A stretch of DNA of 35,227 nt, taken from Actibacterium sp. GTDB taxonomy: Bacteria > Pseudomonadota > Alphaproteobacteria > Rhodobacterales > Rhodobacteraceae. Positions within the stretch are counted from its first letter, which is position 1, and each line of letters starts with the position of its first letter. Shown here piece after piece: positions 13,377-31,861 of the stretch. The translations under genes were made by a program, and so were the position numbers. Below the pieces are notes generated by a model. It was not told the DNA's origin, made no database searches, and saw only the letters and a program-made list of their open reading frames with translations. The stretch lies in NCBI GenBank assembly GCA_016278285.1, contig JADQCD010000234.1:1-35227 (forward strand), in the 5' to 3' direction.

Positions 13377-14552
13377 TCAGATCCGTTCGATGGCGATCGC
13401 GATGCCCTGCCCGCCCCCGATGCACATTGTAATCAGCGCGGTCCTGCCACCCGCCCGTTCCAACTCGTACAGGGCCTTGACGGTCAGGATCGCGCCGGTG
13501 GCACCCACCGGATGCCCCAACGCAATGGCGCCGCCATTGGGATTGACCTTTGCCGGATCCAACCCCAGCTTCTTGTTCACGGCCAACGCCTGTGCCGCGA
13601 AAGCTTCGTTGCTTTCGATCACGTCGAAATCTTCCGCCTTCAGCCCGGTCTTCGCCATCAGCGCCTCGACGGCGGGCACCGGTCCGATGCCCATCACCTC
13701 GGGGCGAACGCCGGCGTGGGCGTAGCCCAGCACCCGGGCACGCGGCGTCAGGCCTGCGCCAGAGGCGGCCTCTTCGCGGGCGAACACCAGGGCCGCCGCC
13801 CCGTCATTGATGCCGCTGGCATTGCCTGCCGTCACGCTGCCATCCTTCTGGAACGCCGGGCGCAGCCCGGCCAGCGCCTCGGCCGAAGTCGCTTTCGGGT
13901 GTTCATCGGTGTCGAATGTCACGGTATCACGTTTCACGCGCAGTTCGATCGGCACGATCTGATCCTTGAACCGATCTTCGGCAATCGCGCGTGTGGCGCG
14001 GGTCTGGCTTTCCAGCGCAAAGGCGTCTTGTGCCGCGCGCGTGATCGAGTGCTCGGCGGCCACGTTCTCGGCGGTCACGCCCATGTGGCCCGTGCCGAAC
14101 GGGCAGCTGAGCGCGCCCAGCATCATGTCCTGCGCCCCCGCATCGCCCATCTTCTGGCCCCAGCGCGCGGCCGGCAGGATATGGGGCGACCGGCTCATGT
14201 TCTCGGCTCCGCCGGCCAGGCCGAACTCGGCGTCGCCCAGCATCAGCGATTGCACGACCGAAACGATCGCCTGTGCACCCGAACCGCACAGCCGGTTCAC
14301 GTTCATCGCAGGCGTCGTATCGGGGATTCCCGCCTGCATCGCCGCGACGCGCGACAGGTACATGTCGCGCGGTTCGGTATTGATGACATGGCCGAACGCA
14401 ACATGGCCGATCTGACGGCCCTCGACGCCTGCACGCCCGAGCGCGGCGCGGGCGACCACGGTCCCCAGTTCGATGGGCGGGGTCCCCGCCAGCGTCCCGC
14501 CGAACGTGCCGATAGCGGTGCGCGCACCGCCGAGAATGACGATTCCGGTCAT
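13377..14552 (-). CDS. Acetyl-CoA C-acetyltransferase (biosynthetic-type thiolase)
   Basis: A cytoplasmic thiolase that condenses or cleaves acyl-CoA and acetyl-CoA, as in acetoacetyl-CoA formation or beta-ketoacyl-CoA breakdown. The 391-residue form starts at the ATG at 14552 (MTGIVILGGARTAIG), which has GGAGGT five bases upstream. The 39 extra residues in the track are not thiolase-like. Visible catalytic groups are Cys89 (NRLCGSGAQAI), His347 (GGAIALGHPVGATG) and Cys377 (TMCIGGGQGIA), the standard triad. The length is normal. It resembles PhaA/AtoB/BktB enzymes, and the chain-length preference cannot be read from sequence. About 200 bases separate it from the upstream lyase gene and it has its own ribosome site, so it may not belong to that operon. 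Confidence 0.93.
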   Translation of the reverse strand: MTGIVILGGARTAIGTFGGTLAGTPPIELGTVVARAALGRAGVEGRQIGHVAFGHVINTEPRDMYLSRVAAMQAGIPDTTPAMNVNRLCGSGAQAIVSVVQSLMLGDAEFGLAGGAENMSRSPHILPAARWGQKMGDAGAQDMMLGALSCPFGTGHMGVTAENVAAEHSITRAAQDAFALESQTRATRAIAEDRFKDQIVPIELRVKRDTVTFDTDEHPKATSAEALAGLRPAFQKDGSVTAGNASGINDGAAALVFAREEAASGAGLTPRARVLGYAHAGVRPEVMGIGPVPAVEALMAKTGLKAEDFDVIESNEAFAAQALAVNKKLGLDPAKVNPNGGAIALGHPVGATGAILTVKALYELERAGGRTALITMCIGGGQGIAIAIERI

Positions 14553-29773: not shown

Positions 29774-30808
29774 ATGGCTGCGACCAAGAAGAAACTGATG
29801 CGTGCAATGGCGGGCGAGGTTCAGGCGGTTCCGCCGGTCTGGCTGATGCGGCAGGCCGGCCGCTATCTGCCGGAATACAAGGCCACGCGGGCCAGGGCCG
29901 GGGATTTCCTGACGCTGTGCTACACGCCGGAACTGGCGGCAGAGGTCACGCTGCAACCGATCCGCCGCTATGGTTTCGACGGGGCGATCCTGTTTGCCGA
30001 CATCCTGCTGGTGCCACAGGCCCTGGGGGCCGATCTGTGGTTCGTTGCCGGCGAGGGGCCGCGCCTGTCCACGATCACGTCGCAAGGCGATTTCGATGCC
30101 TTGCGGGGTGTCGAGGATATCCACGAAACGCTTTCTCCGGTCTATGAAACGCTAGGGCTGGTGAAACCCGAGCTTCCGTCGGACGTAACGCTGATCGGCT
30201 TTGCCGGGGCGCCCTGGACGGTGGCAACCTACATGATCGCCGGGCGCGGCACCAAGGACCAGGGTCCCGCCCATGCCTTGAAACACGAAAACCCGGCGAT
30301 ATTCGACGCGCTGATCGACCGCATCACCGCTGCCACGGTCGAATACCTGTCGGCCCAGATCGACGCAGGTGCCGAGGTGGTCAAGCTGTTCGACAGCTGG
30401 GCCGGATCGCTGAAGGGCGCGGATTTTCACCGTTATGCGCTTGAACCTGCGAAAAGGATCATTTCCGAACTGAAAGCACGCCACCCCGGCACTCCGGTCA
30501 TCGCCTTCCCGCGCGAGGCGGGCGAGAATTATGTCGGCTTTGCCCGGGCCACCGGCGCCGATTGCGTGGCGCTTGACAATTCGGTCAGCGCCGAGTGGGC
30601 GGCGGCCAGGGTGCAGGTGGACGGCTGTGTTCAGGGAAACCTCGACCCCAGACACATGGTCACCGGCGGACAAGCCATGATCGACGAGACCCGGCGCATC
30701 ATGCGGGCTTTCTCGGACGGGCCGCATATCTTCAACCTGGGCCATGGCATCACGCCGGATGCCGACCCGGATAATGTGTCGCGCATGCTGGAGGCGATTC
30801 GCGGCTGA
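29774..30808 (+). CDS. hemE: Uroporphyrinogen decarboxylase
   Basis: A cytoplasmic enzyme of 344 residues that decarboxylates the four acetate side chains of uroporphyrinogen III to give coproporphyrinogen III. The signature [15 protein letters not shown] contains Arg26 and Arg30, and the catalytic Asp76 lies in [28 protein letters not shown] and the C-terminal [13 protein letters not shown] are family hallmarks. A purine-rich GGGGAAAG precedes the ATG. It is divergent from hemC, with hemF nearby downstream on the other strand, so three steps of the pathway are clustered. Assignment is firm. Confidence 0.98.
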
Positions 30809-30847: not shown

Positions 30848-30870
30848 ACCCGCTCGGCGTCTGCGGGTTT
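30848..30870 (+). terminator. Weak candidate terminator after hemE
   Basis: ACCCGC and GCGGGT form a 6-bp stem with a nine-base loop about 40 bases after the hemE stop, followed by only two more T's after the stem. It might end the hemE transcript, but the short T run makes this a low-confidence call. Confidence 0.3.
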
Positions 30871-30902
30871 CGCTGGACGCCTGTGACCTGCTGCGCTAGC
30901 CA

Positions 30903-30918
30903 TGATGGTATACCATCA
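30903..30918. promoter_or_regulatory. 16-bp perfect palindrome, GntR-type operator candidate
   Basis: TGATGGTATACCATCA is perfectly palindromic. The core TGGTATACCA resembles operators of FadR/FCD-type GntR regulators. It lies 25 bases before the possible ATT start (and 103 before the ATG) of the DMT transporter gene, where a repressor could block transcription. No GntR gene is in the window, so the regulator would be encoded elsewhere. Confidence 0.6.
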
Positions 30919-31021
30919 GGCAAGCGGCCAGGGGGGTTGAGTCATTCCATTAACAAGCGCCACGCCCGGGGTTTTCACGCCAGGGCAGCAATATGCGCAA
31001 AATCTGCGCGGGCTGATCTTC

Positions 31022-31861
31022 ATGGCCGCCGGGTTCTTTCTTTTTTCGGCGGTGGACACTCAGGCCAAGTTTCTGACCCAGACGCTCCACCCCATCCAGA
31101 TCGTATGGACGCGGCAGCTTGGCCTGCTGATCGGCGTGCTTTTCCTGTTGCGACTGCGCGGGCTGGCGGTGCTGAGGACCAAGACGCCGCTGTTGCAAAT
31201 GTCGCGCGGGGCATTGGCGGCGACATCGGCCACGCTGTTCATCGTCGGTGTCAGTTTCGTGCCGCTGGCCGATGCAGTGGCGATCAGCTTCGTCGCGCCG
31301 TTCTTCGTAACCATGCTGGGTGCGCTGATCCTGCGAGAGCCGGTGGGAATACGGCGATGGACCGCGATCATCGTGGGGTTCGGCGGCACGCTGATCGTGA
31401 TCCGGCCGGGACTGGGCGTGATCCATCCCGGCGCGCTGCTGGTGATGCTGGCGGCGTTTCTGTTCGCGCTGCGCCAGATCCTGTCGCGGATGCTCAGCGG
31501 CGGCGACCGGACCGAGACGACGGTGGCCTACACCGCGCTGACTGGCAGCGCGCTGCTGACGCTGCCACTGCCCTTTTTCTGGCACTGGCCGGAAACCTTG
31601 CTGGAGCTGGGCCTGCTGGCTGGCATCGCCCTGCTGGCGGCCCTGGGGGAGTTCCTTATCATTCGCGCGCTGGAGGTGGGACAGGCCGTGGTCGTCGCGC
31701 CAATGCAGTATTCGATGATGATCTGGGGCACCTTCTACGGGTTCGTCGTTTTCGGTGATTTCCCCGATTTCTGGACCTGGGTCGGCGCGGCGGTGATCGT
31801 GGCGTCGGGCATCTACACCTTCTACCGCGAACGGCAGGTCATGAAAAACGCCGAGACGTGA
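31022..31861 (+). CDS. EamA/DMT superfamily transporter (RhaT/YdcZ-like permease)
   Basis: An inner-membrane drug/metabolite transporter of 279 residues from the ATG, with about ten hydrophobic segments in two EamA repeats (for example GLLIGVLFLLRL, TLFIVGVSFVPLADAVAISF, ALLVMLAAFLFALRQILS, LGLLAGIALLAALGEFLII). The substrate is unknown; relatives export amino acids or metabolites. The start is doubtful. The ATG has no ribosome site and cuts into the first helix. The open frame continues 26 codons upstream (QQYAQNLRGLIF) to an ATT at 30944 that sits seven bases after AGGGGGG. The real N-terminus may therefore be an ATT-initiated, 26-residue-longer form. The 3' end overlaps the convergent pseudouridine synthase gene by 23 bases. 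A GntR-like palindrome lies upstream. Confidence 0.9.
   Translation: MAAGFFLFSAVDTQAKFLTQTLHPIQIVWTRQLGLLIGVLFLLRLRGLAVLRTKTPLLQMSRGALAATSATLFIVGVSFVPLADAVAISFVAPFFVTMLGALILREPVGIRRWTAIIVGFGGTLIVIRPGLGVIHPGALLVMLAAFLFALRQILSRMLSGGDRTETTVAYTALTGSALLTLPLPFFWHWPETLLELGLLAGIALLAALGEFLIIRALEVGQAVVVAPMQYSMMIWGTFYGFVVFGDFPDFWTWVGAAVIVASGIYTFYRERQVMKNAET

Follow-up and report, generated by a model that had tools for sequence, protein, structure and literature searches.

The window analysed here, that is, the whole 35,227-nucleotide stretch of Actibacterium sp. contig JADQCD010000234.1, contains hemE (uroporphyrinogen decarboxylase; positions 29774-30808, plus strand), followed on the same strand by a gene for an EamA/DMT transporter (30944-31861). 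The membership of this transporter in the EamA/DMT family rests on a score of 72.9 bits with the Pfam EamA profile, against a curated cut-off of 28.2, with matches in two stretches of the protein. Between the two genes lies TGATGGTATACCATCA, which, read directly from the sequence, is a perfect palindrome of 16 bp occupying exactly positions 30903-30918, and the description of such a palindrome close upstream of a transporter in an earlier note on this DNA is hereby confirmed. The core discussed below is its inner 10 bp, TGGTATACCA (30906-30915).

The EamA gene probably begins with AUU (ATT, 30944-30946), because the reading frame is closed upstream by a TGA at 30938, no ATG, GTG or TTG is found ahead of 31022, the ATG of the orthologues falls at about the same residue in the N-terminal alignment, and the ATT preceded by AGGGGG is kept in the sister species. 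A probable ribosome-binding site, AGGGGGG, lies at 30930-30936 on the plus strand, and the AGGGGG of the sister species shows equal spacing. The palindrome ends 25 bp before this likely start, with its centre 33 bp upstream of it; the first in-frame ATG (31022) follows the palindrome at a distance of 103 bp. No sigma-70 promoter consensus was found near the palindrome, and no terminator-like site or hairpin was found at it.

As a generic feature, a perfect 16-bp palindrome is unremarkable given the length and base composition of the window: two were observed against 1.8 expected in first-order Markov sequences, which is not significant. The second one, the GC-rich GCGGTGCGCGCACCGC at 14515-14530, is consistent with chance. 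Since palindromes of this length are expected by chance, we took the counts of the core, its genomic context and its conservation as evidence instead. The full 16-mer occurs only once in the 3.11-Mb assembly, even when up to two mismatches are allowed. The core occurs seven times, against 0.96 copies expected from base composition and 0.12 under a Markov-1 model, and its letters in reversed order, used as a control, do not occur at all. The genome-wide enrichment of the core is significant.

Five of the six other copies of the core were found at genes of sugar-acid catabolism. Three of them are on a single contig (C100), in an idnD/SDR/IlvD-type cluster that, with gene names taken from orthologues, encodes a DHDPS-like protein, LysE, an L-idonate-5-dehydrogenase-like ADH, a gluconate-5-dehydrogenase-like SDR, a HIBADH-type dehydrogenase, PhyH, AzlCD and an IlvD/Edd-type dehydratase. 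Another copy stands ahead of a threonate-type operon, ltnD-otnK-otnC-otnI, and another between the genes for L-arabinonate dehydratase and an aldehyde dehydrogenase in an arabinonate cluster. The sixth lies within the coding sequence of a COQ9-family gene (C62:573; L084:573 in G000), as does one copy in the sister species (C54:118673; L083:5674 in G001). Being coding in both species, it was excluded from the targets and is taken as a coincidence preserved through conservation of the protein. The assignment of the core to a sugar-acid regulon comes from the present analysis and was not part of the earlier note.

Two genomes of the genus were compared, the sister species being represented by G001, an Actibacterium sp. 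MAG (JADQCB010000018), in which the core occurs nine times and its reversed control once. One of these copies is found in the same place as in the window, again behind hemE and before a transporter 90% identical to that of the window, where the two operator sequences read CTGCGCTAGCCATGgTGGTATACCA against CTGCGCTAGCCATGaTGGTATACCA. The 51 bp up to the right edge of the core (30865-30915, plus strand) are identical at 46 positions (about 90%), against about 60% in the rest of the intergenic alignment, so that this block looks like a conserved promoter-operator. The arms of the palindrome beyond the core differ between the two species, and only the core is preserved.

Another copy of the motif in G001, TTTGGTATACCAAA, has a TRAP transporter operon on one side and, on the other, a divergent gene for a regulator of 236 aa with GntR and FCD domains (Pfam). 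A near-duplicate segment with equal arrangement, whose regulator is 90% identical, was found on contig C20 of the same genome. The core directly precedes the gene in each of the 11 close orthologues of this TRAP-linked regulator that were examined, which are 52-100% identical and come from ten genomes. G001 contributes two of them, and G025, G026, G003, G027, G006, G028, G007, G046 and G057 contribute one each; besides the sister species, nine other genera of the family are represented. At the regulator genes of G025, G003, G028, G007 and G046 the motif extends to GATGGTATACCATC, the inner 14 bases of the window's site, and in G025, G003, G006 and G028 two copies of the core are placed 56 bp apart. 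Moreover, in four genera (G003, G025, G026 and G007) all copies in the genome fall within about 32 kb on the contig of the regulator. Among regulator homologues of less than 50% identity, the core was not found. Taken together, these comparisons point to a strong link between the motif and the regulator. Eight genomes, that of the sister species among them, have an EamA gene as a constant part of the regulator's cluster.

The arrangement TGGT-AT-ACCA also agrees with what is described for the FadR subfamily, in which operators are palindromes of TKGT and ACMA boxes with 2-3 nt between GT and AC (PMC4494728); a spacing of 2 nt is reported for UxuR, GntR, HpxS, HypR, MdcY and PrpR (PMC4494728). 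With the UxuR-type operators the window's site shares the boxes, the GT-2 nt-AC spacing and the palindromic structure, and the targets of UxuR (PMC4494728) are of the sugar-acid type, as are those of the motif described here. The linked regulator itself falls outside the UxuR and ExuR orthologous groups, since it scores far under the respective NCBIfam equivalog cut-offs (33.0 of 442 bits and 40.4 of 396 bits). The half-site TGGTATA and a regulator with GntR and FCD domains are also common to the NanR system, but the NanR sites are direct repeats, TGGTATAW (PMC4494728), whereas the site in the window is an inverted repeat. The palindrome is almost certainly the binding site of a GntR/FadR-type regulator, one that would control genes for the breakdown of sugar acids at other places in this bacterium and in its relatives, which supports the FadR/FCD-type operator proposed in the earlier note. 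As a check, that note had named a search for further copies, and for one next to a gntR gene; such copies do occur, at metabolic clusters in the window's genome and adjacent to gntR genes in the sister species and the nine other genera.

The earlier suggestion that the regulator is encoded elsewhere fits the motif-linked GntR/FCD gene, but a protein search did not find this gene in the window's own assembly, which is fragmented. In this assembly the sugar-acid cluster is split: C100 ends within the IlvD-type gene, and C186 carries the cluster on with SDR, EamA and HIBADH genes until it ends within a uxaA-type gene, before the position held in G001 by the TRAP operon and the regulator. The duplicate contig of G001 starts within the same uxaA gene, which makes a repeat-caused gap the likely reason for the absence of the regulator, and we infer that the gene is present in the genome. 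Another GntR protein, for instance one of the ten FCD proteins that are assembled, might bind the operator instead, as similar motifs are found among GntR/FadR regulators (PMC4494728). In G002, a genome without a close orthologue of the regulator, the single core stands 75 bp before a more distant GntR gene (L130:1501), so that this operator may be common to related GntR proteins. Nevertheless, none of the ten FCD genes has the motif nearby and none was retained as the cognate regulator, while every close orthologue of the TRAP-linked regulator has one and the cluster of the latter is present in the window's genome as far as the contig end; binding by a different GntR protein is in our view improbable.

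We consider it highly probable that a sugar-acid regulator of the FadR subfamily uses the palindrome as its operator and through it controls the EamA transporter, probably as a repressor. In Rhodobacteraceae, this GntR/FCD protein, about 236 aa long, would govern the uptake and breakdown of sugar acids; as a dimer it would bind the core, shortly before the ribosome-binding site of the EamA gene, and most likely repress that gene. The dimer would be freed by a sugar acid, or by an intermediate of the breakdown, imported by the TRAP transporter of the regulon, and the EamA transporter would then be made together with the sugar-acid pathway. That the effector is probably of this kind is suggested by the match to the published FadR-subfamily motifs, and a site centred 33 bp before the start codon suits a repressor. 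The neighbouring hemE is not thought to be a target.

Palindromic operators of the GntR/FadR family usually repress. This habit of the family, the placement just upstream of the ribosome-binding site and the conserved block upstream of it all argue against the sugar-acid regulator activating the transporter gene, or occupying a non-productive or decoy site without effect on it. Such outcomes would agree with the lack of a recognised promoter consensus nearby, but we regard them as rather unlikely. A functionless chance palindrome is less likely still: perfect palindromes of this length are to be expected in such a window and the core copy in the COQ9-family gene is probably incidental, but the site matches exactly the operator of the regulator itself, its core is enriched throughout the genome, and both core and location are conserved in the sister species. 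The position downstream of hemE, on the same strand, might point to a terminator or an RNA element at the end of that gene, but this is hardly credible for a palindrome without loop or T-run whose sequence recurs in the promoters of unrelated genes.

The EamA gene of the window and the EamA gene of the regulator's cluster are paralogues, about 36% identical, and the former is unlinked to the cluster; the orthologue of the latter in the window's genome is located on C186. With the operator behind hemE, the regulon would gain a second EamA transporter besides the one in its main cluster. The expectation that the site would also precede orthologous transporters holds for the other genome of the genus but fails outside it: in the stretches examined, the orthologues of other genera (52-69% identical) have neither the operator nor hemE beside them; this includes G003, G025 and G026, where the regulator is present. 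A degenerate site was sought before these orthologues and rejected: the best candidate reached at most 5.3 bits, and the two true sites score 25.8 and 22.6 bits. Its absence there suggests that the recruitment of the operator to this transporter is, as far as the data go, specific to the genus.

The site is new, but the kind of operator is already known, and an operator of this kind before a stray transporter gene is useful to know while being ordinary and unsurprising. Compared with the precedents in the FadR subfamily, it is the transporter target that is new. An orphan transporter thereby gains a testable role, as it may move sugar acids or their breakdown products and be switched with the pathway, and the outline emerges of a compact, conserved regulon of Rhodobacteraceae, whose operator also stands, in one genus, ahead of a gene that is not linked to it. 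More tentatively, an unnamed sugar-acid regulator of Rhodobacteraceae might run several unlinked pathways, of the aldonate, threonate and arabinonate types, and, in this genus, an EamA transporter carrying a sugar acid or intermediate that would be new as a substrate for such transporters; we see this as possible rather than probable.

A literature search by the letters of the motif returned unrelated papers, and the nearest solved TRAP binding protein, 4pe3, bears just the general name DctP and gives no substrate. The TRAP loci for L-fuconate/L-galactonate and L-gulonate with GntR regulators, mainly of Halomonas, resemble the regulator's cluster by gene types, in sharing a TRAP transporter, a uxaA-type dehydratase, an SDR and an FAH-family hydrolase; the L-gulonate locus is controlled by the GntR family, as is probable here, and, unlike in the regulator's cluster, EamA members are not described in the parts of that report consulted (PMC5507952). 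In G001, contigs C1 and C20 (L079 and L080) carry two uxaA-TRAP-GntR-FAH segments, with proteins about 90-95% identical, a duplication that may be the cause of the contig breaks in the two assemblies.
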